Below, in pieces: positions 4,820 through 25,459 of a stretch of DNA of 38,207 nt. The notes under the pieces are model-generated. The model had not been told where the DNA came from and ran no database searches. It was given only the letters and a program-made list of their open reading frames with translations. The position numbers and the translations under genes were made by a program. Location of the stretch: the NCBI GenBank assembly GCA_002842755.1, contig PHDU01000031.1, positions 1 through 38,207 on the forward strand, written 5' to 3'. Every line of letters begins with the position of its first letter. Position 1 is the stretch's first letter. Source of the DNA: Bacteroidetes bacterium HGW-Bacteroidetes-1. GTDB lineage: Bacteria; Bacteroidota; Bacteroidia; Bacteroidales; F082.

Positions 4820-5025
4820 TTATGACGTAAGCCAATCAAAAAATGTTACAGCGCAAAAAAAATAATTGATTCAATAAAAAATCTGTAACCAATTTCCATC
4901 CTGATTTTCATTCTTTTTGAAAAGATAGTCGTCCTTCAAATTGTCGATGAAGCCCATTCTTTAGATTGCTAAATAATTCTTTCTTGGATAGAACATTTAC
5001 ACAAGATTCATTCACGACTGCTTTG

Positions 5026-5033
5026 TACATTTG
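5026..5033 (+). promoter_or_regulatory. Putative -7 promoter box for the EamA transporter operon
   Basis: TACATTTG matches the Bacteroidota -7 consensus TAnnTTTG and ends 12 nt before the ATG at 5045, implying a very short leader. No convincing -33 TTG is visible at the usual distance. Confidence 0.45.
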
Positions 5034-5044
5034 CAGGAAAAAAA

Positions 5045-5899
5045 ATGCTTTACCTTTTTGCCTCCATTGTATTCTCTGCCCTGATATTGATTCTTTTCAG
5101 ATATTTCACCCGATTCGGCATTGACAATCTTCAGGCAATCATTGGCAATTATTTTATTGCAGCCATTATTGGATATATAGCATATCCCGGGTCTCCTGAT
5201 TTTCTTTCTATTACAAAACTCAGTTGGTTTCCAATGGCGGTTTTATTAGGTTTTATCTTTATAGGTGTGTTCTTTTTATTCGCACTCTCCTCACAGAAAG
5301 CAGGAGTTGCAGTTACAGCTGTTGCAAGTCGCATGTCGGTCGTAATTCCTGTTGCAGGAGGCTTCCTGCTTTTTGGTGAGCAGGCTACACTATTTAAAAT
5401 CATTGGAATCCTGATTGCGTTGCCTGCTTTCTATTTTACATTTAAAAATAAGCAAAAAATGAAATTCAATATTTCACTTGCATTGCTCCCTTTTTTCATT
5501 TTTTTAGGAACAGGCACCAATGATTTATTGATGAAATATACCGACCATCACTTTCTTACAAATGACTTATTTTTGTTGCTTGCAACCATATTCGCTTTTG
5601 CATTTATAATAGGATCAAGCGTATTGCTTATCAGACTTTACAAAAAGAAAACACAGTTGCATGTAAAGCATTTTGGTGCAGGGCTTGTCCTTGGACTTGT
5701 CAATTTCGGTTCTACCTATTATATGTTCAAGAGTATGGAATTTTTTGATAGTTCGGTCATGTTTCCAATACTTAATACAGGCGTGGTAAGCCTTGCAGCA
5801 CTGGCTGACTATTTATTGTTCAACGAGCGATTAAGCAGAACCAATTGGATTGGTATTCTGCTTGCCATCATTGCCATTATTTTTATATCATTGGGATGA
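5045..5899 (+). CDS. EamA/DMT-family transporter
   Basis: 284-residue inner-membrane protein made of about ten hydrophobic segments in two homologous halves, the EamA (drug/metabolite transporter) layout. The first half ends with GGFLLFGEQATLFKIIGILIAL and the second with DYLLFNERLSRTNWIGILLAI. These loop-E-loop repeats before the last helix of each half are typical of EamA domains. The substrate cannot be told from sequence; relatives export amino acids, metabolites or nucleotide sugars. The stop overlaps the start of the next gene (ATGA at 5896-5899), so the two are translationally coupled. Confidence 0.85.
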   Translation: MLYLFASIVFSALILILFRYFTRFGIDNLQAIIGNYFIAAIIGYIAYPGSPDFLSITKLSWFPMAVLLGFIFIGVFFLFALSSQKAGVAVTAVASRMSVVIPVAGGFLLFGEQATLFKIIGILIALPAFYFTFKNKQKMKFNISLALLPFFIFLGTGTNDLLMKYTDHHFLTNDLFLLLATIFAFAFIIGSSVLLIRLYKKKTQLHVKHFGAGLVLGLVNFGSTYYMFKSMEFFDSSVMFPILNTGVVSLAALADYLLFNERLSRTNWIGILLAIIAIIFISLG

Positions 5900-6510
5900 C
5901 AGAAAGTGACACATATAAAATAATTACCGCACCATCAGAAGGGTTGTATAAAGAAAAAGGCAGCAAGTTTATCAGCATTGCGATGCACGTAACTTCAGAA
6001 GAGGAGGTTAAAATTCAACTCGAAAAAATTAAGAAAGAATATTATACCGCCCGTCATCACTGCTATGCATATGTTCTTGAACCCGATAAACGATTGTTCA
6101 GAGCCAACGATGATGGTGAACCGTCGGGATCGGCCGGGAAACCAATTCTAAATCAGATTTACTCTTTTGAGCTAACAAATATTTTGGTGGTAGTGGTCAG
6201 GTATTTTGGTGGCACAAAGTTAGGGGTCAGCGGACTAGTTAACGCTTATAAAACCGCAACGAGAGAAGCACTGGCAATAGCACCAACAGAAATCAGAACA
6301 ATTGATGAAGTATATGCACTTTCTTTTCCATATCCACTCATGAACGAAGTGATGCGTATCACCAAAGAGGAAAATCTCCAGCAAATTAATCCGAAATTTG
6401 AACTTGATTGTTATTTTGAAATTAAATGCAGAAAAAATGATGTTGAAAAAATAATTGAAAAGTTCAAAAATATTTACGGACTAACAATAAAATACCTCCA
6501 AACCCTTTAG
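5896..6510 (+). CDS. YigZ/IMPACT-family protein
   Basis: 204 residues from the ATG at 5896, which sits inside the ATGA overlap with the transporter stop. The open frame extends 17 codons further upstream, but that part lies inside the transporter gene and is not conserved-looking. Family hallmarks: GLYKEKGSKFI near the N-terminus, ARHHCYAY, then DDGEPSGSAGKPIL and VVRYFGGTKLGVSGLVNAY. These match the UPF0029/IMPACT N-terminal domain. A ferredoxin-like DUF1949 domain fills the C-terminal third. E. coli YigZ has the same size and order. The biochemical role is not settled; eukaryotic IMPACT acts in translational control. Confidence 0.92.
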   Translation: MTESDTYKIITAPSEGLYKEKGSKFISIAMHVTSEEEVKIQLEKIKKEYYTARHHCYAYVLEPDKRLFRANDDGEPSGSAGKPILNQIYSFELTNILVVVVRYFGGTKLGVSGLVNAYKTATREALAIAPTEIRTIDEVYALSFPYPLMNEVMRITKEENLQQINPKFELDCYFEIKCRKNDVEKIIEKFKNIYGLTIKYLQTL

Positions 6511-6743
6511 CAATAAGCTCTTCAAAAAGATAACCGAAATCGGATAGGTATTTCCCATTTACAACGAATTTTTTTAATTGTCAATACAAAAAAAAGTTTT
6601 TTTTTAACTTTTTTTAATTCATTTTTGTTGAAAAGAATGCAACATTATTTGATCAGGTTAAAGCGAAGATAATCAGATAGTTTGCTTTAATTATAAAATC
6701 ATGGGTATTTAATTTTATTATAACTGATTGATTTACAATAAGA

Positions 6744-8180
6744 ATGAAAAAAAAGCATCACGAAGTGTGGGAAAAGTGTCTGGAAGTTATTAAGGATAAC
6801 ATCCACATTCAAAGCTTTAAAACATGGTTTGAGCCTATTGTACCAATTAAACTTGAAAACAATGTTCTTACCATACAGGTACCGAGCCAGTTTTTCTATG
6901 AATGGCTCGAAGAACATTATATTGTTTTATTAAAAAAAACAATTAAAAAGGAACTTGGCCCGGAAGGCAGACTTGAATACAGCATTATTATGGACAATAG
7001 CTATAGTTCAAGTGGCCCATTTGCAGTAAATTATCCCACAAGCAACCATAAAGCAACTAAAAACCCTTACGTTTCCATGCCTCTTGATCTCAATCGTGGT
7101 ACCTCTAAAGACATCCCAAATCCCTTCATAATTCCCGGGCTTAAGAAAATAAAAGTTGAATCGCAACTTGTCGAGAGTTACTCATTTGATAGTTTCATTG
7201 AAGGTGATTGTAACCGGCTTGCACGGTCAGCAGGTTACGCTGTTGCTGAAAATCCCGGTAAAACTGCTTTTAATCCATTGCTTATATTCAGTCCAACGGG
7301 TTTAGGTAAAACACATCTTGCACATGCCATTGGGCTTCAGGCTAAAAATAATTTTCCGGATAAAATAGTATTATATGTTCAAAGCGAACAATTTATAAAT
7401 CAATTTATAGAATCGGTTCGAAATAACAACCAAAACGACTTTGTTCACTTTTACCAGATGATCGATGTGTTAATTATCGACGACATTCAGTTTCTATCTG
7501 GAAAAGACAAAACTCAGGATGTTTTTTTCCATGTATTCAATCATTTACACCAAAACAGTAAACAACTTATTATAACCTGCGACAAGCCTCCTGTTGAGCT
7601 TAAAGGGATGGAACCCCGCCTGTTATCTCGATTTAAATGGGGTCTTTCTGCCGATCTGCAACTTCCCGATTTAGAGACAAGGACACTCATTTTGAAGAGG
7701 AAATTATACAACGATGGTATTGTAATCCCATCAGAAGTAATTGATTATCTCGCTCAATCCATTTCAACCAATGTACGCGAGATGGAAGGAGCGCTCATTT
7801 CTTTGATTGCTCAATCATCCCTCAACAAAAAGTCAATCACGCTTGACCTTGCGCGCCAAATGATTGATAAATTCATTAAAAATACAACGAAGGATATTTC
7901 TATTGATTTTATTCAAAAAATTGTTTGTGACTATTTCGGATTACCTGTAGATCAATTGAATACAAAGACACGTAAACGTGAAATTGTTCAGGCAAGACAA
8001 GTTGCAATGTATTTTTCAAAAAAACATACAAAATCTTCACTTGCTACTATTGGTCTTCAATGTGGCAACAAAGACCACGCAACAGTGTTACATGCATGTA
8101 AAACAATTGCAAATCTTATTGAAACGGATAAACAATTCCGGTCGAACGTTTTTGAAATTGATAAGAAGATTATTCAATAA
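6744..8180 (+). CDS. dnaA: Chromosomal replication initiator protein DnaA
   Basis: Binds DnaA boxes and melts the replication origin. 478 residues. Domain I is about 5-80 (WEKCLEVIKDNI, then FKTWFEPI). A linker follows to about 140. Domain III is an AAA+ ATPase with Walker A SPTGLGKTH (183-191), Walker B LIIDDIQF (243-250) and the box VII arginine in PRLLSRFKWG (291-300). Domain IV (about 380-478) is the DNA-binding domain with signature GNKDHATVLHACKTI (441-455). The residues before the Walker A core are SPTG rather than the more usual GGVG/GGTG, while GKTH is kept. It appears monocistronic with an AT-rich 233-bp upstream spacer. Confidence 0.97.
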   Translation: MKKKHHEVWEKCLEVIKDNIHIQSFKTWFEPIVPIKLENNVLTIQVPSQFFYEWLEEHYIVLLKKTIKKELGPEGRLEYSIIMDNSYSSSGPFAVNYPTSNHKATKNPYVSMPLDLNRGTSKDIPNPFIIPGLKKIKVESQLVESYSFDSFIEGDCNRLARSAGYAVAENPGKTAFNPLLIFSPTGLGKTHLAHAIGLQAKNNFPDKIVLYVQSEQFINQFIESVRNNNQNDFVHFYQMIDVLIIDDIQFLSGKDKTQDVFFHVFNHLHQNSKQLIITCDKPPVELKGMEPRLLSRFKWGLSADLQLPDLETRTLILKRKLYNDGIVIPSEVIDYLAQSISTNVREMEGALISLIAQSSLNKKSITLDLARQMIDKFIKNTTKDISIDFIQKIVCDYFGLPVDQLNTKTRKREIVQARQVAMYFSKKHTKSSLATIGLQCGNKDHATVLHACKTIANLIETDKQFRSNVFEIDKKIIQ

Positions 8181-16704: not shown

Positions 16705-17451
16705 CTACATGCTCATGCCACCACAAACGCTTATTACCTGTCCAGTAACATAGGAAGACAAGTCGCTGGCAAGAAAAACAGCCACATCAGCTACGTCTTC
16801 TGGCTTGCCACTCCGGCGAAGCGGAATTGTACTCACCCACTGCTGCCTGACATCATCGGGAAGTTTATGGGTCATTTCTGTTTCTATAAATCCAGGTGCT
16901 ATTGCGTTGCAGCGTACATTACGACTTCCCAATTCCTGAGCAATTGATTTGGTAAAACCTATCATCCCTGCTTTGGAAGCCGAATAGTTTGACTGTCCTG
17001 CATTCCCATTAACGCCTACAACTGAACTCATATTAATGATTGATCCACCTCTTTGTTTGATCATAGTCCGCTGAACCGACTTTGTCAGATTAAAAACTGA
17101 CTTTAGGTTAACTGCCATCACTAAATCCCAATCTTGCTCCGTCATACGCATAAGCAAATTGTCGCGCGTGATACCTGCATTGTTGATGAGGACATCAATT
17201 CTGCCAAATTCAGCAATCACATCCTCAGCTAGTTTTTCGCTATCCTGCAATGAAGAAGCGTTAGAAGCAAATCCTTTGGCTTTCACTCCAAAAGCCTGAA
17301 TCTCTTTTTCTGTTGCTTCCATATGTTCATCCATTTTCAAATCAGAAAACGCAATAGCAGCGCCTTCAGCAGCAAATCGTAAGGCCAATGCCTTTCCTAT
17401 TCCGCGCGCACCACCAGTGATGAGCGCAACTTTTCCTTCTAATAATTTCAT
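16705..17451 (-). CDS. fabG: 3-oxoacyl-[acyl-carrier-protein] reductase
   Basis: NADPH-dependent reduction of 3-oxoacyl-ACP in type II fatty acid synthesis. 248 residues from MKLLEGKVALITGG; the open frame extends 17 codons upstream to 17502, but that part is a hydrophobic, non-family extension, so the ATG at 17451 is chosen. Short-chain dehydrogenase motifs: TGGARGIG (nucleotide binding), NNAGITRDNL, the catalytic serine in NMSSVVG, and Tyr/Lys in SNYSASKAG. The C-terminus YVTGQVISVCGGMSM is typical of FabG. No acpP or fabF is adjacent. A PHB-type acetoacetyl-CoA reductase is the main alternative. Confidence 0.9.
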   Translation of the reverse strand: MKLLEGKVALITGGARGIGKALALRFAAEGAAIAFSDLKMDEHMEATEKEIQAFGVKAKGFASNASSLQDSEKLAEDVIAEFGRIDVLINNAGITRDNLLMRMTEQDWDLVMAVNLKSVFNLTKSVQRTMIKQRGGSIINMSSVVGVNGNAGQSNYSASKAGMIGFTKSIAQELGSRNVRCNAIAPGFIETEMTHKLPDDVRQQWVSTIPLRRSGKPEDVADVAVFLASDLSSYVTGQVISVCGGMSM

Positions 17452-17622
17452 GCGGTTATTATTTTTTGCCAGCCAAAGATACAAAAATTGAATAAAGAAC
17501 ATCTAACTGTGAGTTGAAGATGGAAAGTTGAAATGTTAAGAGACAATTAATACAATACTATTACTGCTACTCTACCACACTAATTAATAATACTTTAGAC
17601 AAGCAAATAAAAAGTACTAAAG

Positions 17623-17653: not shown

Positions 17654-17723
17654 AAAAAACCTCATTCAGCGCAAGAATTATTTTAAATCGTTGTCAAACT
17701 AGTGTCATTAAACATTAATAAAC

Positions 17724-18083
17724 ATGAAAAAAATTATTTTAAGCATCGCATTGTTAGGATTTATCTCAGTTGGACAAATCCAGGCACAATCAAATGAAAC
17801 GAAAGCAGAAAAAGCAACTGCACAGCAACAATTAGGGAATTTCGTTGACAGCAACAAAGATGGAGTTTGCGACAATTTTGAACAGCGTCAGAAAAATATG
17901 CAGGGACAGTTTTTCAAAGATGAAAACAAAGATGGAGTTTGTGATAATGCCGGAGAAAGACGTGGAAGAGGTCAAGGATTACGTGGAAAAGGACAAAGAA
18001 AAAATTGTCAGGGCACAACAGTAAATGGCGGCAGGAACAGGTCTGGCAGAGGTTTTAACCAATCATCGCATGAAACTAAATAA
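17724..18083 (+). CDS. Small secreted protein with two EF-hand-like calcium loops and RG-rich tail
   Basis: 119 residues. The signal peptide ends near VGQIQAQ (22). The first loop, residues 42-53 (DSNKDGVCDNFE), fits the EF-hand pattern with acidic or amide ligands at 1, 3, 5, 9 and Glu at 12. The second, from Asp66 (DENKDGVCDNAG), has Gly at position 12 with Glu next to it. Both loops carry Cys in the hydrophobic position 8. The tail (about 79-115) is rich in Arg and Gly (RRGRGQGLRGKG). Probably a periplasmic or exported Ca-binding protein. It heads the sigma factor cluster, separated from the sigma gene by a terminator. No TAnnTTTG box is visible upstream, which would fit an ECF-dependent promoter, but I cannot show one. 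Confidence 0.7.
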   Translation: MKKIILSIALLGFISVGQIQAQSNETKAEKATAQQQLGNFVDSNKDGVCDNFEQRQKNMQGQFFKDENKDGVCDNAGERRGRGQGLRGKGQRKNCQGTTVNGGRNRSGRGFNQSSHETK

Positions 18084-18112
18084 TCAATTCTAGAGAATAT
18101 TTGGCAGAGAAA

Positions 18113-18166
18113 AAAAGGAAGAATGGAATCTGTTTGCATATCTTTGAGCAGATTCTTCTTCCTTTT
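18113..18166 (+). terminator. Strong intrinsic terminator between the EF-hand gene and the sigma factor gene
   Basis: Left arm 18113-18132 (AAAAGGAAGAA, bulged TG, GAATCTG) pairs with right arm 18149-18166 (CAGATTC, TTCTTCCTTTT): 18 perfect pairs, a 2-nt bulge and a 16-nt loop, ending in TTTT. It lies 30 nt past the EF-hand stop and covers the upstream ATG (18123) of the sigma frame, which supports the downstream ATG at 18192 as the true start. Confidence 0.75.
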
Positions 18167-18191
18167 AAAGGATAGCCAAAGTGATGAAAAT

Positions 18192-18764
18192 ATGCATGAA
18201 AATCAATTAATTGAAGCTATTTGCGAAGGTGATGAACGTGCTTTTAGCCAATTAATAGATCAATACAGGCCTATGGTAATTCGCATTACATATCGCATTG
18301 TGCAGGACATGGATGATACAGAAGATCTTGTGCAGGAAGTTTTTTTGAAAATCTGGCAGACCATAGGAACATTCAAAGGAGAATCAAGTCTGAAAACATG
18401 GATCTACCGTCTGGCAGTCAACAAAGCCCTGAATTTTTTAAAATGGAAAAAAATAAGAACTTTTATTCTGCGTCAGGAGCCCTTAAATGATAAAACAAAA
18501 AACGACAAGAATTACATGAGAAGTCCCGAAGCTTTGAAGCATTTTCAACAGAAAGAAGATGCTTCAGCAATTGAAAAAGCGCTTTCCCATCTGCCTTCAA
18601 ATCAGCGGGCAGTATTTTCACTTAGCAAAGCTGAAGGTCTTTCAAACCCCGAAATTGCAACAATCCTCAATATCAATGTTGGGGCCGTTGAGTCGCTCAT
18701 CTTCAGAGCAAAAAAAAGTTTGCAAATACACCTTTCAACCTATTACAAAACAACTTTATCCTAA
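18192..18764 (+). CDS. ECF RNA polymerase sigma factor (sigma-70 family)
   Basis: 190 residues from MHENQLIEAICEGDERAF; the frame extends to 18123, but that part lies in the terminator hairpin. Region 2 is about 10-75 (FSQLIDQYRPMVIRITYRIV, then DTEDLVQEVFLKIWQ and STLKTWIYRLAVN-like SSLKTWIYRLAVN). Region 4 is about 125-185 (LPSNQRAVFSLSKAEGLSNPEIATILNINVGAVESLIFRAKKSL), the -35 binding helix-turn-helix. Followed after 18 nt by an anti-sigma gene and then a membrane-anchored CpxP-like gene, so one operon is likely. It probably responds to an envelope signal. Whether it controls its own operon is not shown. Confidence 0.93.
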   Translation: MHENQLIEAICEGDERAFSQLIDQYRPMVIRITYRIVQDMDDTEDLVQEVFLKIWQTIGTFKGESSLKTWIYRLAVNKALNFLKWKKIRTFILRQEPLNDKTKNDKNYMRSPEALKHFQQKEDASAIEKALSHLPSNQRAVFSLSKAEGLSNPEIATILNINVGAVESLIFRAKKSLQIHLSTYYKTTLS

Positions 18765-18782
18765 ATCTGAAATCAATTGATT

Positions 18783-19196
18783 ATGAATTGTCAAGATTGC
18801 ATGGCCATGTTATTAAATAAGGATCTCATTCATATGGAATCCTCCATTGAATTAATGGAACATTTAAAAAGCTGCAATGCATGCACCCATTTGCAAATTG
18901 AGTTTGAAAAAGACATGAAAAAGTGGATCGAAGGCCCTGCTATTTCTGATGATCCATTGTATTACGATAAAATAATCATAGCTTCAAACCTCAAGGCAAA
19001 GCATGTCTTCCTTCCAAAAAAGATTGCTGCCATGCTTGTCGCAGCATCGTTATTTGTAGGAATAACAATTGGAACACTCTTTTTGTCACAAGCTGCTTCA
19101 GTTAATGAACCAACTTTTCTCTCAAGTTTATCCTATGATTATGAGCTAAATCTCGCTGATGATGATGTCTTTCCAGTTGATTTTTTCTTTGAATAA
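18783..19196 (+). CDS. ZAS-type anti-sigma factor, single-pass membrane protein
   Basis: 137 residues from the ATG at 18783 (the open frame also has a TTG six bases earlier). MNCQDCMAML and HLKSCNAC give the zinc-associated anti-sigma pattern with His-x3-Cys-x2-Cys at the end of the first helical domain. A transmembrane segment lies near residues 80-102 (KIAAMLVAASLFVGITIGTLFL would be its core region), leaving a short acidic extracytoplasmic tail of about 35 residues (LADDDVFPVDFFFE). It should hold the adjacent ECF sigma factor at the membrane. The acidic tail is a candidate for metal or protein sensing, which is inference. Confidence 0.85.
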   Translation: MNCQDCMAMLLNKDLIHMESSIELMEHLKSCNACTHLQIEFEKDMKKWIEGPAISDDPLYYDKIIIASNLKAKHVFLPKKIAAMLVAASLFVGITIGTLFLSQAASVNEPTFLSSLSYDYELNLADDDVFPVDFFFE

Positions 19197-19207
19197 AATT
19201 CACTTCT

Positions 19208-19726
19208 ATGAAAACATATAAAAATCTTACAATACTATTTCTGGTGCTCTTTCTGATAAGCACTGTTGCTCTAATCACAATTTTAACGGGTAATCAATTC
19301 ACAAGAAAACCTGCAGAGACTACTCCAATGTATGGCAGAGGGTTCATGTACATTAAAAATCAATTGGGGTTCAGCACTACGCAGGAAATAAAATATGACA
19401 GCCTGTTGGCTGAGTACCATCGCTCTGTGAGTCCTTTGCGTGAAGAAATTTCGGATATTCAGGTAGCTATGCTCACCCAGTTTACTGACTCCTTTCCTGA
19501 CACGATCAAACTGGATCAATTAGCCAGCGATGCCTGTTTGATTCAGAATAAAATCAGACAATTAACCTTTCATCATCTTATCGCTGTTCGAGACATTTCA
19601 ACCCCGGAACAACAAACAGGTCTTAAATCTTTGTATTACGAGATGATCAATGAGAGTAAAAACAATCGTCTTCATCAAAATCAGGGAAGAGGGCGAAACC
19701 GCTTTAGACATGGACAACAGCAATAG
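19208..19726 (+). CDS. Membrane-anchored CpxP/Spy/ZraP-like periplasmic protein (heavy-metal sensor family)
   Basis: 172 residues. One N-terminal helix (about 7-28, ILFLVLFLISTVALITIL) anchors a periplasmic, mostly helical domain. The layout FMYIKNQLGFSTTQEIKYDSLLAEYHRSVSPLREEI, then a mid helix, then STPEQQTGLKSLYYEMI matches the LTxxQ-containing helical-hairpin proteins of the CpxP/Spy/ZraP group. The tail is Gly/Arg/Gln-rich (QGRGRNRFRHGQQQ), resembling the RG-rich tail of the EF-hand protein at the start of the cluster. It closes the sigma/anti-sigma operon (11 nt after the anti-sigma stop). It may act as chaperone or sensor modulating the anti-sigma factor; the family's ligand varies. 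Confidence 0.8.
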   Translation: MKTYKNLTILFLVLFLISTVALITILTGNQFTRKPAETTPMYGRGFMYIKNQLGFSTTQEIKYDSLLAEYHRSVSPLREEISDIQVAMLTQFTDSFPDTIKLDQLASDACLIQNKIRQLTFHHLIAVRDISTPEQQTGLKSLYYEMINESKNNRLHQNQGRGRNRFRHGQQQ

Positions 19727-19755
19727 AAAATCAGATTAAAATGTGCTTCAATTGT

Positions 19756-20691
19756 TTATTCTGATTCATTCTTAGATTCATTTTTTAAGTAATAGGGTTC
19801 AACATGGACACCTACATGCGTTTGCTCGCCATATTTATATCGTAAGGCATTTTCCACTGCTGTTGCAATTTCGTGCGACTCTTCAACAGTTAGACCTTTA
19901 TCCACTTTAACATGAACCTCAATCGCCAGAATATTTCCAATTTTGCGCGTTCTCAACTGATGATGATAAATAACTCCTGCTTGTGATGCAATTATATTTT
20001 TTATTTCGACACGAATAGATTCAGGCAGAGCAACCTCAAGCAACTCCCTTATGCTGGGCATGCCTAAATCCCAGGATACTTTCATAATAAAAACACTTAC
20101 TATCATACCGGCAACCGGATCAAGAACACGCCACTTTTCTCCTAAAAATATAGCTCCTGCAATTCCAAGTGCAGTGCCAATTGATGAAAAAGCGTCAGAG
20201 CGATGATGCCAGGCATTGGCAATTACAGTCTGGCTATTAATTCTCCTACCAACTAGAATGGTGTATTGGTATAAAATCTCTTTGGCAATGATAGAGGCGA
20301 TCGCTGCATAAAAAGCAACCATTCCTGGCTTTGGCATTATCTTTCCATCAACGGCTGACAAAATATTTTGCAAAGCATCCCAAAATATACCAACTCCAAC
20401 CAGCATTAAAGCAAAACTGATGATCATCGTCGCGAACGTTTCGTACTTACCATGCCCATACTGATGATCATGATCCTTCTCTTTACCGGCAATACCCACA
20501 AAAGCAATGACTACAAAGTCCGTCGCGATATCCGAAAGAGAGTGAACGCCATCAGCAAGCATGGCCGAACTTTTACCTAAAACACCAGCAAGCAATTTCC
20601 CTGAGGTAAGTAAAATATTTACAACCATCCCAACAAGGGTAACTTTTCTTGCATTATACACCCGTTCCTGACTCTGTGTTTTATCAATCAT
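19756..20691 (-). CDS. Cation diffusion facilitator (CDF) transporter
   Basis: Metal/proton antiporter exporting Zn, Fe, Co, Cd or Mn from the cytoplasm. 311 residues from MIDKTQSQERVYNARK; the frame extends to 20787, but that part overlaps the kinase gene, so the ATG at 20691 is chosen (14 nt after the kinase stop). Six helices lie in about 18-215. The metal site motifs are in HSLSDIATDFV (helix 2) and WHHRSDAFSS (helix 5), as in the ZT_dimer family. HGHGKYETF-like HDHQYGHGKYETF is the histidine loop. The C-terminal cytoplasmic domain (HVKVDKGLTVEESHEIA) is intact. The histidine in helix 2 and 5 (HxxxD pairs) suggests zinc- or iron-type specificity, which sequence alone does not settle. Confidence 0.9.
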   Translation of the reverse strand: MIDKTQSQERVYNARKVTLVGMVVNILLTSGKLLAGVLGKSSAMLADGVHSLSDIATDFVVIAFVGIAGKEKDHDHQYGHGKYETFATMIISFALMLVGVGIFWDALQNILSAVDGKIMPKPGMVAFYAAIASIIAKEILYQYTILVGRRINSQTVIANAWHHRSDAFSSIGTALGIAGAIFLGEKWRVLDPVAGMIVSVFIMKVSWDLGMPSIRELLEVALPESIRVEIKNIIASQAGVIYHHQLRTRKIGNILAIEVHVKVDKGLTVEESHEIATAVENALRYKYGEQTHVGVHVEPYYLKNESKNESE

Positions 20692-20704
20692 ACTTTGATA
20701 TTTT

Positions 20705-21883
20705 TTAAATATGAAGAGGAGAATTAGTCCATTTAACTGGTTCAAAAAATAAACAGACTTTAGCACCGCCTTCAGGCATGTTATCAACAGTTATCTCACC
20801 GCCATGTGCATCCATAATAAGTTTAACAGCAGCCAATGATAAACCAACTGTTTCATTGGAAATCATATTTCCTGTCAAAAAGAAATCGTTTAATACCTCT
20901 AAAACATATGGACTGAAACCCTCGCCATTATCACTCACTTGAATGCATACTTTTTTATCCTTAGCCCTATAGGCTTTGATCGAAACTTTTCCACCTTCAG
21001 GAAGCATATACACAGCATTTTCTATTAGAATAGAGATGCATTTTCTAATCAGATAAGCATCAACAAACACCAATAAATGTTCATCTTCGATATGCTGCTC
21101 AATATTTATCATTTTCTCCTTAATTTGAAAAGTCAAACCTTCAACAGCTACTTCTACCAATACCTTAACCAAAACCTCATAGAAATCTACCGCTTGATCT
21201 TTCGTCTGAAGAGAGGTAATCAATAATGCCATCTCGGAAAATCGTGCTAATCTATTTGATGTTTGACCAAGTGATTGCATGTATCCCCTTTGTTCCTCTG
21301 AAAGCTCCGTTTGATCAAGCAGACTTGTCAAACCAATTAATGCATTCAGTGGTGACCTGAGTTCATGACTTATAATCGATAAAAACTCACTTTTTGCCTT
21401 TTCAAGGCTTAACAATTGTCTATTTGCAGCCTCAAGTTGCCTTGTTCGTTCAAACACCTTTTTTTCAAGATCTCTATTCAATTCATCAAGCTGTTTTTGC
21501 TTCAAAAACAAATCAAGATGCGTTTTAACTCTGGCCAATAACTCAGCGCTATTAAACGGTTTGGTCAAGTAATCATTGGCACCACATTCAAAACCTTTGA
21601 CAATACTTTCCGAATCAGTCTTAGCTGTTATAAAAATTATAGGAGTTTTAGCAGTTGAAGGTTGAAGACGTAATTTCCGACACACTTCATAGCCATCCAT
21701 TAAAGGCATCATGATATCAAGCAGAATGAGGTCAAAATTTGTAGTATACGCAAGTTCTAACGCTTTCGATCCCTCTGTAGCATACGCAATCTGAACCTGC
21801 TCTTCAAGCAGGATATTTCCGATAATCTGAATGTTTTTCGAATTATCATCAACTATAAGCACTTTTAAATCAGTATATTTCAT
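20705..21883 (-). CDS. Receiver domain-histidine kinase hybrid (cytoplasmic)
   Basis: 392 residues. Receiver domain 1-120: Asp12/Asp13 acid pair, phospho-acceptor Asp56 in LLDIMMP, Lys108 in LTKPF. A coiled linker (about 125-165) leads to HisKA with phosphorylatable His173 in SHELRSPLN. The ATPase domain (about 265-385) has N box IENAVYM, G1 DNGEGF, and a G2 box reading TVGLSLAAV, which lacks the first glycine of the usual GTGLGL. No transmembrane segment and no DNA-binding domain. It lies 34 nt downstream of the TPR kinase and 14 nt upstream of the CDF gene, so it probably relays phosphate within this operon. The output is not visible. Confidence 0.9.
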   Translation of the reverse strand: MKYTDLKVLIVDDNSKNIQIIGNILLEEQVQIAYATEGSKALELAYTTNFDLILLDIMMPLMDGYEVCRKLRLQPSTAKTPIIFITAKTDSESIVKGFECGANDYLTKPFNSAELLARVKTHLDLFLKQKQLDELNRDLEKKVFERTRQLEAANRQLLSLEKAKSEFLSIISHELRSPLNALIGLTSLLDQTELSEEQRGYMQSLGQTSNRLARFSEMALLITSLQTKDQAVDFYEVLVKVLVEVAVEGLTFQIKEKMINIEQHIEDEHLLVFVDAYLIRKCISILIENAVYMLPEGGKVSIKAYRAKDKKVCIQVSDNGEGFSPYVLEVLNDFFLTGNMISNETVGLSLAAVKLIMDAHGGEITVDNMPEGGAKVCLFFEPVKWTNSPLHI

Positions 21884-21917
21884 TATATATTATTATATGA
21901 ATGCTTTCATTGTACAA

Positions 21918-24773
21918 TCAAGATTTGGCGTCAACTTGTTTCAAATAATGTCTAAAAGTTTTCAAACATTCTGAAATTTTTTCGACATCAAATGCATCAA
22001 TGTAGTCTGTCAGTTTAATCCCTAAATCTTTGAGGGCAGCATTGTGGTTTTGAATGGCAAACTGATTCAGTACAGTTGCAAATAGTGAAGTATCCTGAAT
22101 GAAACTACTCTTTTCTGCCTTTTCAAAGTACATTATCAGTTCATCGTATTTCTCAATATAGTCAGCACTCCGAACCTTAGATTCATAATCCAATTGAATT
22201 GATCCGCTATCCTCAATCACGTTTTCAAAAATTATCTGCTGCAAACGGATCATTTCATCAGGCAGTTCTACAACAAAATCAAAATAATTTTGAGTTTTTA
22301 ATGTCGATTCACTTTTATGATGAATTAACAGTATTTGCTTACTTTCAGATTTCACTTCTTGTTTTTGAGAAAGGGTAAGATCAATGGAATTGATCATATT
22401 TGAATCCCATAAAACACAATAGTATGCCTTTCCACCAATGAATTCATTATATAGATCGACGGTTTCATAAACATCACATTTTATAGATAATTCTGTTAGA
22501 GTGCGGCCCATAAGGACCTGTAATGGAGTGCTGTTACTAATCAAACCTATTTCAGACAATGTTACCAAATGGTTTGTTTTTCCTGTCATTATTCTTAATC
22601 TCGTGCGTTGCTGATGAAATTTGACTGTTCTGAAAATGACAGAAAATTTTGTGCCTTCATTCACGCTACTTTCAACGCTTATTTCGCCATTCAGTGCTTC
22701 GACCAACCGTTTGGTAATCGTTAATCCAAGCCCTGTGCCTGCATATCTTACTTTTCCAATATCAGACTGATAAAAAGCATCAAAAATATGTTCCATATCT
22801 TCCTGCGCCATTCCAATTCCTGTATCCTGAACCTCAAGCAAAATGTCACAATGATCCTCATCAATTGGAAGTGCTTTGATTGAGATATAAATTTTCCCTT
22901 TTGAGGTAAATTTAATTGCATTACCAATCAGGTTAAACATTATCTGACGCATACTGATTTCGCTCGAATGAATTATTTCAGGAAGACTATCCTCAATATC
23001 AATCTCAAAATCAATCATCTTTTGTGAGGATTGAAGGACAAAAACTCTTTTCAATTCAAAAACCAAAGCTCTTAAATCCATTGAATGAAATTCAATTACC
23101 TGTTTACCTGACTCGATTTTCGAAAGGTCAAGAATATCATTGATAAGCACCAAAAGACTCTGACCACTTGTGCGAATTGATTCGAGATATCCGAGTTGCT
23201 GAGGATTATGAATCATTTTCGAAAGGATATCGGAAAAACCAATAACAGAATTCATTGGAGTACGTATTTCATGACTCATATTAGCAAGAAACTGACTTTT
23301 AAGCCGGTTGCTTTGTTCGGCATCTTGCTTTGCCAAAAGTAATTTTTCAGCATATTCAGCAAGTTTATTTTTTGCCTGTTCAATTTCCTGATTCTTCTCA
23401 CGTAGCAATTTATTAGCATTGCTTCGAAATTGTAACACTAAAAATAACACAACAATTCCAACTACTAAAATAATAAAGCCTGAAATAATTACGAGATTAT
23501 AAATCTTTTGCCTTTTAAAACGTAAATCAGCAATTTGATTCTCATTCTTAAGGATCTCTATTTGATTTTGCGCTTTTTCCCTATTGAATACTGCCTGCAT
23601 TTGAAAGATAATGCGCTGCGTATTTTCATTTAGAATGCTGTCGTTAAGTGAGCTGGACAGTTCGAGGTACTGAATTGCATCTTTCGTATTGCCAAGTCTT
23701 TTACGTATTTGATACATTAACTTATAAGCATCTGCAAGATTGGAGCGGTTTAGCGTCAGTTCTGACAATCGAATTGCTTCTTTCACATAAGGTAGCGCTG
23801 TAAGATCACTATTTTTCTGGCTGTAAATTTTGGCCAATTTGAAATTATTAATTGCCAGGTAATAAAAATCTTCAATTGATTCATTTAGTTGATAACTAAG
23901 CAGATAATAATTCAATGCCTTTTCTGGTTCCTTTTTCTCAAGAAAAATATCACCAATATCTGTATAACAAATTGCAAGGCCTCTTTTTGATCCGATCTCA
24001 CGATTTATTTCAAGTGAAAGCATAAAATACTCAAGAGCACGGTCTATATCGTTAAGATGTTTATAAACATGGCCAACATTATTGAGGTTTATGGCCACTC
24101 CAATCATGTTGTTATTTAATTGCTCAATTCTTAGGCATTCCCTGAAATTTTGCATTGCTTCACTGAAATTATTCAATGCAAGATAAATATTGCCAAGTCC
24201 ATTGCTCGCATAAACATAACCTTTTATGTTTCCTGTTGAATCAGCTAACCTGAGAGCTTCCTGATAAGATTCTATTGCTATCTGATATTTATCCATCCTT
24301 CTATACAATAGTCCCAGATTATTTAGTGCCAGTATCTTATCTGATATGCGTTGAAGAGAGTCAGCATAAAACAGTTGAGTTGAATGCCAAAATATTGCAT
24401 TATTAAATTTGTATTTATTCCGTTCACTGATACCTTCTTCTTCAACTCTTCGTAAGAAATAATTCATCAGGTTGTTATTTGATGCAAAATGAAACGTTTT
24501 TGCGATCATTTCTTTTCGCTTCTCATCCACATTTATACTTGAAGATGTTTGCTTTAAATCATTGATATAACTGATAAAGGCATTTATCCTCAAGGTATCG
24601 TTTGTGAATTCTGATCGGGCATATGTAAGCAAGGAATCTTCAGAAGAATTGGCAATCATTTGAATAGGTTCAATCTCACCCTTTCCTGACACCTGAATTG
24701 ATGTCAAAGAAAACATAAAAAAAATCACAATGAGTTGTCTCATTTTTGCTTTTGTGGCTTTAATACCCGACAA
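21918..24773 (-). CDS. TPR-containing sensor histidine kinase with pseudo-receiver tail
   Basis: 951 residues from 24773; Met11 (24743) starts a cleaner signal peptide (MRQLIVIFFMFSLTSIQVSG) and is the likelier start. Periplasmic part to about 423 holds at least six TPRs (such as NNLGLLYRRMDKYQIAIESYQEAL, shortened here to its start). TM about 425-449, coiled coil, HisKA with His501 in NMSHEIRTPMN, ATPase with N box LIGNAIKFT, G1 DTGIGM and G2 GTGLGL. From about 725 a receiver-like fold follows that lacks the acid pair and the conserved Lys (VLWDSN, VVELPD), so it looks like a pseudo-receiver. The last 90 residues are helical (FDVEKI), common in hybrid kinases. Leads the operon to the CDF exporter. 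Confidence 0.92.
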   Translation of the reverse strand: MSGIKATKAKMRQLIVIFFMFSLTSIQVSGKGEIEPIQMIANSSEDSLLTYARSEFTNDTLRINAFISYINDLKQTSSSINVDEKRKEMIAKTFHFASNNNLMNYFLRRVEEEGISERNKYKFNNAIFWHSTQLFYADSLQRISDKILALNNLGLLYRRMDKYQIAIESYQEALRLADSTGNIKGYVYASNGLGNIYLALNNFSEAMQNFRECLRIEQLNNNMIGVAINLNNVGHVYKHLNDIDRALEYFMLSLEINREIGSKRGLAICYTDIGDIFLEKKEPEKALNYYLLSYQLNESIEDFYYLAINNFKLAKIYSQKNSDLTALPYVKEAIRLSELTLNRSNLADAYKLMYQIRKRLGNTKDAIQYLELSSSLNDSILNENTQRIIFQMQAVFNREKAQNQIEILKNENQIADLRFKRQKIYNLVIISGFIILVVGIVVLFLVLQFRSNANKLLREKNQEIEQAKNKLAEYAEKLLLAKQDAEQSNRLKSQFLANMSHEIRTPMNSVIGFSDILSKMIHNPQQLGYLESIRTSGQSLLVLINDILDLSKIESGKQVIEFHSMDLRALVFELKRVFVLQSSQKMIDFEIDIEDSLPEIIHSSEISMRQIMFNLIGNAIKFTSKGKIYISIKALPIDEDHCDILLEVQDTGIGMAQEDMEHIFDAFYQSDIGKVRYAGTGLGLTITKRLVEALNGEISVESSVNEGTKFSVIFRTVKFHQQRTRLRIMTGKTNHLVTLSEIGLISNSTPLQVLMGRTLTELSIKCDVYETVDLYNEFIGGKAYYCVLWDSNMINSIDLTLSQKQEVKSESKQILLIHHKSESTLKTQNYFDFVVELPDEMIRLQQIIFENVIEDSGSIQLDYESKVRSADYIEKYDELIMYFEKAEKSSFIQDTSLFATVLNQFAIQNHNAALKDLGIKLTDYIDAFDVEKISECLKTFRHYLKQVDAKS

Positions 24774-24934: not shown

Positions 24935-25459
24935 TTGAAAAAAAATATGCACACTAAAATCTCAATATCTCTCCTGTTATGTTTTGGCATGATGATTACA
25001 TCCTGTTCCAGAAAAAACTTCAATCAAACACCTGAAACAATTACACAAATACCAGAAGGCATGATAAAAAAAATTGATAAAACAGAGGCAGAATGGATGA
25101 AAGAACTTGGTTCTGAACGTTATAATGTTCTTCGTCAGTGCAGTACTGAACCTCCATTTACAGGTAAATTTGTTAATCATAAAGCAAAAGGAAGTTACAT
25201 TTGTGCAGGGTGTGGTGCTGCATTGTTTAGCTCCGACAGTAAATATGATTCCCGTTCAGGATGGCCAAGTTTTTTTGATGCCATCGATCCATCAAAAATC
25301 AAAGAAATACGTGATACAAGTTATGGAATGGTACGCACAGAAATAAAATGTGCAAGCTGTAATGGTCATCTGGGCCATGTTTTTAATGATGGTCCTGCAC
25401 CTACCGGACTACGTTATTGTGTAAATTCAGCTTCTCTTGATTTCAAGCCAGAAGAATAA
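24935..25459 (+). CDS. msrB: Peptide-methionine (R)-S-oxide reductase, lipoprotein
   Basis: Repairs methionine-R-sulfoxide in envelope proteins. 174 residues. A lipoprotein signal ends at ITSC (Cys24), so it should be lipid-anchored. MsrB domain about 45-170: zinc ligands Cys90, Cys93, Cys139 and Cys142 (ICAGCG, KCASCNGHLGH), FxGKF-type FTGKFVNHKAKG, RSGWPSF, and catalytic Cys162 in RYCVNSASL. Cys69 in RQCSTEPPF is the likely resolving cysteine. Met5 (24947) is an alternative start. Ends 3 bp from the stop of the convergent gene. Single-gene unit; divergent from the kinase operon by 161 bp. Confidence 0.94.
   Translation: MKKNMHTKISISLLLCFGMMITSCSRKNFNQTPETITQIPEGMIKKIDKTEAEWMKELGSERYNVLRQCSTEPPFTGKFVNHKAKGSYICAGCGAALFSSDSKYDSRSGWPSFFDAIDPSKIKEIRDTSYGMVRTEIKCASCNGHLGHVFNDGPAPTGLRYCVNSASLDFKPEE

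Follow-up and report, generated by a model that had tools for sequence, protein, structure and literature searches.

The region studied here, positions 17724..24773 of a 38,207-nt stretch of DNA (contig PHDU01000031.1 of Bacteroidetes bacterium HGW-Bacteroidetes-1, the whole of which is referred to as the window and gives all window positions), contains seven genes, g1 to g7, in two converging sets. A sequence-only reading of this region had described an extracytoplasmic function (ECF) sigma factor operon on the plus strand and, on the minus strand, two kinases and a cation diffusion facilitator (CDF) exporter, with the two operons ending 30 bp apart and proposed to act in one response; the promoter at 17671-17698 and the conserved divergent SDR gene upstream (Table 1) were not part of that description. 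All seven open reading frames (ORFs) were confirmed with the position, strand and order described, and their start sites were revised with homologue lengths and downstream ATGs (Table 1). The two sets do converge, but the gap between their stop codons is 29 bp.

In agreement with the sigma factor assigned to the plus strand, Pfam recognized sigma regions 2 and 4 in g2. The product of g1, proposed to be a secreted EF-hand protein, has an Arg/Gly-rich tail and two 12-residue EF-hand-like loops seen by eye, DSNKDGVCDNFE and DENKDGVCDNAG, which are of the form DxNxDGxCDN and carry a Cys at position 8. When compared with the 12-residue loop DxDxDGxxxxxE, DSNKDGVCDNFE fits, while DENKDGVCDNAG lacks E12. 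Pfam gave no family and no EF-hand match for g1, and its EF-hand label is provisional. Neither g1 nor g3 received a meaningful score from any Pfam or NCBIfam model. The zinc-binding anti-sigma (ZAS) motif HxxxCxxC of g3 (EHLKSCNAC, found by eye) is invariant at the His and both Cys in 8/8 aligned rows, including that of the window; an N-terminal Cys is found in 7/8 rows, and the periplasmic tail is conserved as DYxLxxxxDxxFPVDFF. By this motif g3 is a candidate ZAS (class I ASDI) anti-sigma factor; Pfam gave no match, and the AlphaFold2 model of g3 is of low confidence (pLDDT 65). The fold of g4 is that of ZraP, CnrX, CpxP and Spy, as the earlier description of a CpxP/Spy-like anchored protein had suggested, though its match to PF13801 (Metal_resist; 1.6e-5, 25.5 bits) lies under the gathering score of 29.2 bits, a cut-off that is passed by the anchored relatives of loci L086, L074 and L075 and failed by those of L094, L079 and L077. 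The anchored periplasmic helical hairpin of a CnrX-type sensor is found in g4. The metal ligands of CnrX, H42, H46 and H119 together with E63 and M123 (the latter two named in titles of mutant studies), were mapped onto F46, K50, L67, H123 and V127 of g4 by a near-gapless offset of 4, and in this approximate register only H123 is kept (11/12 rows).

Table 1. Features of the window at and around the seven-gene region.
Feature	Position	Strand	Basis or remark
VWA-like membrane protein, 695 aa	14532..16619	-	Label by eye, no Pfam match
Short-chain dehydrogenase/reductase (SDR; FabG-like), divergent from the cassette	16705..17502	-	Upstream neighbor in 7/7 genus genomes
Predicted ECF sigma promoter GCAAGAA-N15-GTCAAA	17671..17698	+	Conserved before the operon
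g1, small secreted protein, 119 aa	17724..18083	+	Signal-peptide-like N-terminus, EF-hand-like loops
g2, ECF sigma factor, 190 aa	18192..18764	+	PF04542 1.1e-17, PF08281 2e-17; frame open from 18123, probable start from homologue starts
g3, anti-sigma factor with one transmembrane (TM) segment and a ZAS motif	18783..19196	+	Motif by eye; start revised to this ATG
g4, membrane-anchored CnrX/ZraP/CpxP-fold sensor candidate, PF13801-like	19208..19726	+	Pfam, fold matches
g5, CDF exporter of cations with an HD-HD transport site, 311 aa	19756..20691	-	Cation_efflux and ZT_dimer; frame open to 20787, revised ATG 13 bp after g6
g6, receiver-HisKA-HATPase protein	20705..21883	-	Pfam
g7, tetratricopeptide repeat (TPR)-HisKA-HATPase histidine kinase	21918..24743	-	Pfam, TM segment by eye; frame open to 24773, likely ATG given

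Relatives of the plus-strand genes were searched for in the window genome and 60 others (E <= 0.001). Matches to g4 were found in 14/61 genomes and to g1 in 12/61, and g1 to g4 occur in the same order in seven of the nine genomes of the genus, i.e., the window genome, G001, G003, G004 (in which g1 was identified by reading frames), G006, G007 and G008. The cassette was not found in G005 (97% complete) and G002 (84% complete), and no relative was found in the viral contigs. The SDR gene and the 695-aa gene flank the cassette in 7/7 of these genomes and adjoin each other in the related loci examined. The sequence GCAAGAA-N15-GTCWAA precedes g1 in all seven cassette-bearing genomes, with much of the surrounding sequence diverged. 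Its exact form is found once in the 4.2-Mb window genome, at the cassette operon, and matches with one mismatch number 17, compared to 21 for a reversed control. As judged from sequence, these four genes form a conserved candidate switch made up of CnrX-like parts.

The trio formed by g2, g3 and g4 extends well beyond the genus. In a sample of 296 genomes of the phylum, 131 had a match to a g4 profile (E <= 1e-6), and 40 of the matching places were fetched; the loci examined number 67 in total. In 54 of the 67, a sigma factor gene is followed by a gap of the size of a small gene and then by a g4-like gene, a count that is not a background rate because all of these loci were chosen for a g4 or sigma homologue. 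Three of the 54 trios lack a called ORF at this place; HxxxCxxC is found in 15 of the other 51, leaving 36/51 anti-sigma candidates without a ZAS motif, and a hydrophobic segment (>1.6) occurs in 50/54.

The promoter motif was also found before many of these trios. The strict genus motif, at up to two mismatches, was found in 13 of 40 upstream regions from outside the genus, while 1.9 were expected from shuffles. With a looser form, GCAAGWW-N15-GTCWAA, and one mismatch allowed, 30/54 trios (23/47 outside the genus) had a site before the sigma factor gene, the anti-sigma gene or both; spacers of 11, 12, 13, 14, 16, 17, 18 and 19 gave 0, 0, 0, 0, 0, 1, 0 and 2, and shuffles a mean of 0.3. This second test is not fully independent because the looser form was written after the strict-motif output had been seen, and the strict test is the cleaner one. 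A larger sigma regulon was considered and rejected, as the looser motif occurs at control level genome-wide. In 11 genomes there were 17 sites (reversed control, 19), of which eight were at the cassettes' own operons, eight inside ORFs and one before a secreted-protein gene. In 17 further genomes, 31 sites were found (control, 35), and the 30 with a locus comprised nine at own operons, 13 inside ORFs and eight between genes; the 31st is at G357:C27. Of the eight between genes, one is upstream of the CotH gene of G356, two are upstream of MbnP operons in G357, three precede genes without an apparent connection (L277, L282 and L290), and two have no gene downstream that could be found (L281 and L294). 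With the motif at control level and the other sites mostly inside ORFs or unlinked, the cassette would therefore mainly regulate itself. The single secreted-protein site (L156, G001:C6, 1501-1528) is an exact match to the looser motif 75 bp before a gene for a 475-aa protein, and is possibly a second target or a chance occurrence.

We favor, with a probability of about 0.6, the reading that g1 to g4 form a self-contained ECF sigma switch that controls its own expression and works like CnrYXH, and that the CDF exporter and the kinases are separable neighbors. In this switch, g3 would hold the sigma factor at the membrane, while its short periplasmic tail would meet the anchored CnrX/CpxP-fold protein g4. 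A periplasmic signal, either a metal ion or envelope/protein-folding stress, may alter the contact of g3 with g4 and free the sigma factor, which would then read GCAAGAA-N15-GTCAAA before g1; the conservation of this motif is observed, and its binding by the sigma factor is predicted. This would raise the amounts of the sigma factor's own brakes and of the secreted, probably metal-binding EF-hand protein, which would serve as an effector or a buffer. The broader suggestion that this is an envelope- or metal-type signaling cassette held up, given the fold of g4 and the HD-HD CDF beside it in 6/7 genomes.

What accompanies the trio varies. The effector position is taken by an EF-hand gene in the genus and in L079, L077, L086 and L094; this gene is first in the operon in 7/7 genus genomes and L079, and last in L086 and L094. 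In the sigma factor tree the genus joins L079. Spy-like secreted genes are found there instead in four loci, L073 on the basis of Pfam and L075, L076 and L078 on the basis of inspection by eye and of the g4 profile. In some distant trios MbnP and MauG genes (L175 and L178) or a MauG gene (L129) come directly next, and others have YHYH, metallophosphatase, CotH or Lcl_C proteins encoded nearby, a number of them with a type IX secretion system tail. We give about even odds to the joint reading that there is a phylum-wide Bacteroidota ECF cassette, of which the window operon is the EF-hand version. Its parts would be the sigma factor, a small and often ZAS-less anti-sigma factor and an anchored CnrX-fold sensor, all under one promoter code, GCAAGWW-N15-GTCWAA, that acts near-exclusively on the cassette itself and on an exchangeable secreted effector (an EF-hand protein, a Spy-like protein, an MbnP/MauG pair, or CotH/metallophosphatase surface proteins). 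The flavobacterial trios of L175, L176 and L178 (about 5000-7850) likewise diverge from two genes, an SDR gene whose product is 63-65% identical to that of the window and a gene related at 24-27% to the one for the 695-aa protein, although their sigma factors are not sister to that of the window. A close kinship of these flavobacterial cassettes with the genus, suggested by the shared SDR and VWA-like flanks, was rejected because the two groups stand apart in the sigma tree; the likeness of the flanks may reflect either a very old linkage or repeated insertion.

A rival explanation is a pure CpxP/Spy-type envelope folding response with no metal signal. It is consistent with the fold matches of g4, which include CpxP and Spy, with the absence of a CnrX-type metal site in g4, and with the Spy-like effectors of L073, L075, L076 and L078. 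Such a response would, however, leave the EF-hand loops and the CDF neighbor unexplained, and ZraP and CnrX rank equal to or above CpxP and Spy among the fold matches; we consider it unlikely.

The CDF neighbor raises a second explanation, that of one metal-homeostasis locus in which the cassette is the sensor of a divalent metal that the neighboring CDF exporter, with or without the kinases, removes. The domains assigned to the minus strand (TPR kinase, receiver-kinase and CDF) were confirmed by Pfam, with g5 having Cation_efflux and ZT_dimer and residue pairs in TM2 and TM5, which are H-D and H-D in 18/18 aligned CDFs. HD-HD sites favor Zn over Cd. In six of the seven cassette-bearing genomes a close homologue of this CDF gene runs toward g4, and the CnrX-like fold of g4 also points toward metal. 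Against this explanation, g4 keeps only one of the five CnrX ligand positions, and the CDF and the cassette also occur apart: in G005 the CDF adjoins the SDR gene without a cassette, in G004 only a 63-aa C-terminal CDF remnant lies beside the cassette (L173, 9542-9733, the same place as L069), and in G041 the CDF and the cassette are on different contigs. Of the loci fetched, 11 contain a close CDF that is not beside the cassette (L080-L085 and L087-L091); none of these had a g4-like gene, and only L085 had an ECF sigma factor gene, about 4 kb away and 30% identical. The phylum survey included 39 loci with a g4-like gene, and none of them has a CDF within 4.5 kb. No sigma motif precedes the CDF or the kinases; the window has no one-mismatch site besides the exact one, and at up to three mismatches it has 33 matches compared to 33.4 expected. 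Co-regulation of the kinases and the CDF by the sigma factor was thus rejected at the motif level, and a sigma-driven metal efflux operon, as in CnrYXH, was not found when judged by motif only. One observation weighs against the separateness of the CDF: in L078 (G052) a CDF gene lies in line after the anti-sigma, sensor and Spy-like genes, although it belongs to another subfamily (30% identity). On balance a single metal-homeostasis locus appears improbable, and the CDF is a genus-level neighbor with a possible functional link to the cassette.

Two further observations concern the CDF. A second copy in G006 (L085, G006:C27, 3243-13146) adjoins a gene for a 1442-aa protein, a kinase/regulator pair and an ECF sigma factor gene, and is possibly part of a separate metal island, as judged by size and BLAST only. 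A resistance-nodulation-division (RND) efflux operon considered beside the CDF in G004, G007 and G008 was rejected, as Pfam showed other families: LptF/G and a glycosyltransferase are encoded in both L070 and L072, and Nuo/molybdopterin-type subunits in L070 as well; for G004 (L069) the call is inferred from gene sizes only.

The kinases are less closely tied to the cassette. The g6/g7 pair adjoins the CDF in 3/7 cassette-bearing genomes (the window genome, G003 and G006), lies beside msrB and symporter genes in G004, G005, G007 and G008, and is elsewhere in G001; no match to g6 at E <= 1e-60 was present in G002. In the window, MsrB is encoded at 24935-25459, divergent from g7, and msrB stays with the kinases in seven of the eight genus genomes in which the pair was found, the exception being G001. 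Among five genomes of the family outside the genus, g7, g6, the SDR gene and the 695-aa gene are on one strand in G011, G013, G016 and G029 and not in G010; TPR kinase, receiver kinase, SDR and VWA-like genes in a row (L267, L268, L269 and L271) are a candidate functional unit. No DNA-binding output domain was found in g6, which has receiver, HisKA and HATPase domains only, and an output regulator elsewhere was not sought. A TAnnTTTG box, a consensus read by the housekeeping sigma factor (PMC7366714), lies 68 bp upstream of the likely g7 ATG, and is weak evidence because the two strands of the window together contain 48 such boxes. The kinases appear to be an older, separable pair that is next to the CDF in one subclade. 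In the simplest history, the CDF and an inverted cassette would have come to lie between the old kinase pair and the old SDR neighbor, and later rearrangements would have split these genes in some genomes. The proposal of one response shared by both operons was not supported by these comparisons, since the kinases adjoin the CDF in only 3/7 genomes, the CDF and the cassette also occur apart, and the sigma motif is absent before the kinases and the CDF. Conserved adjacency holds for the CDF, within the genus only, but not for the kinases, and the claimed union of the cassette with the minus strand is mostly one of neighborhood, with a possible link to the CDF.

The flavobacterial members suggest a copper-linked switch, with periplasmic copper or redox state as the signal to which the cassette family responds. 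A copper role is attributed to MbnP. MbnP and MauG genes directly follow the trio in L175 and L178, and MauG in L129; in G356 and G359 one MbnP/MauG pair is inside the cassette operon. The flavobacterial metagenome-assembled genome G357 has four exact motifs, three of which are at its own operon (at the anti-sigma gene) and at both MbnP operons. The sites before the two MbnP operons lie on contigs C4 and C16 (L293, L300, L303 and L313), and one of these operons begins with a gene for a small CVNKxKPxxHCNGKCHL protein without a Pfam match. However, the second MbnP/MauG pairs of G356 and G359 have no motif in front, the MbnP/MauG loci of the genus (7/7) have none at one mismatch, G008 has no MbnP match, and the flavobacterial sigma factors are in another clade, not sister to that of the window. 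PMC3621798 stated in 2013 that data connecting close homologues of MbnP with copper were lacking. Because of the clade and the motif-less genus loci, copper is a lead for the family and not evidence for the window, and the copper-linked reading as a whole seems highly doubtful. Equally doubtful is a calcium-linked loop like CaBP-SigV of Caulobacter, in which g1 would bind Ca2+ and modulate the sigma factor through g4 and g3: the EF-hand gene holds an end place in the genus, L079, L086 and L094, and in Caulobacter the EF-hand protein, which is periplasmic and encoded next to an ECF sigma factor, is described as induced by calcium limitation and acid (PMC13171946), but the g1 loops carry Cys at position 8, the CaBP-SigV link is itself unresolved in the available text of that report, and most surveyed trios show no EF-hand gene, so that the EF-hand protein is not the core sensor.

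The proposed self-contained switch is of broader interest for ECF regulation in this phylum. A recognized class I anti-sigma gene lies near 6% of Bacteroidetes ECF sigma factors, compared to 32% for all phyla (PMC7406223), and a conserved small membrane anti-sigma candidate could fill part of this gap. The fixed promoter motif makes targets of these sigma factors predictable and testable. Neither the cassette nor the motif was recognized for Bacteroidota in the titles, abstract beginnings and passages of the open-access literature searched, and no mention of Bacteroidetes, CnrX or CpxP was found in PMC8103513.

Several known systems resemble parts of the locus. The g5 exporter is a full-length family match to FieF/YiiP and MamM, with His as its first TM2 ligand where FieF has Asp. 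In fold and distant sequence relation g4 is like CpxP, Spy and ZraP, but it has an N-terminal TM anchor and an ECF sigma factor as partner rather than a two-component pair. Caulobacter CaBP-SigV also has a secreted EF-hand protein beside an ECF sigma factor in a feedback loop; it is from another phylum and has other loops, and no anti-sigma, CnrX-like or other sensor partner is identified in the available text (PMC13171946). The same three-gene logic is found in the Azospirillum operon of RpoE8, a hypothetical protein and a periplasmic heavy metal sensor, which is not from Bacteroidota and for which the available text reports only upregulation and mentions no EF-hand (PMC12826043). A further related system is CnrYXH/NccYXH of Cupriavidus metallidurans. 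There, CnrY is a class II anti-sigma factor (PMC7406223), whereas g3 carries the ZAS motif; four of the five mapped CnrX ligand positions are not kept in g4, and no RND efflux genes were seen beside the cassette. The order of the window genes is instead sigma factor, anti-sigma factor and sensor, to which the window adds a gene for a secreted EF-hand protein.
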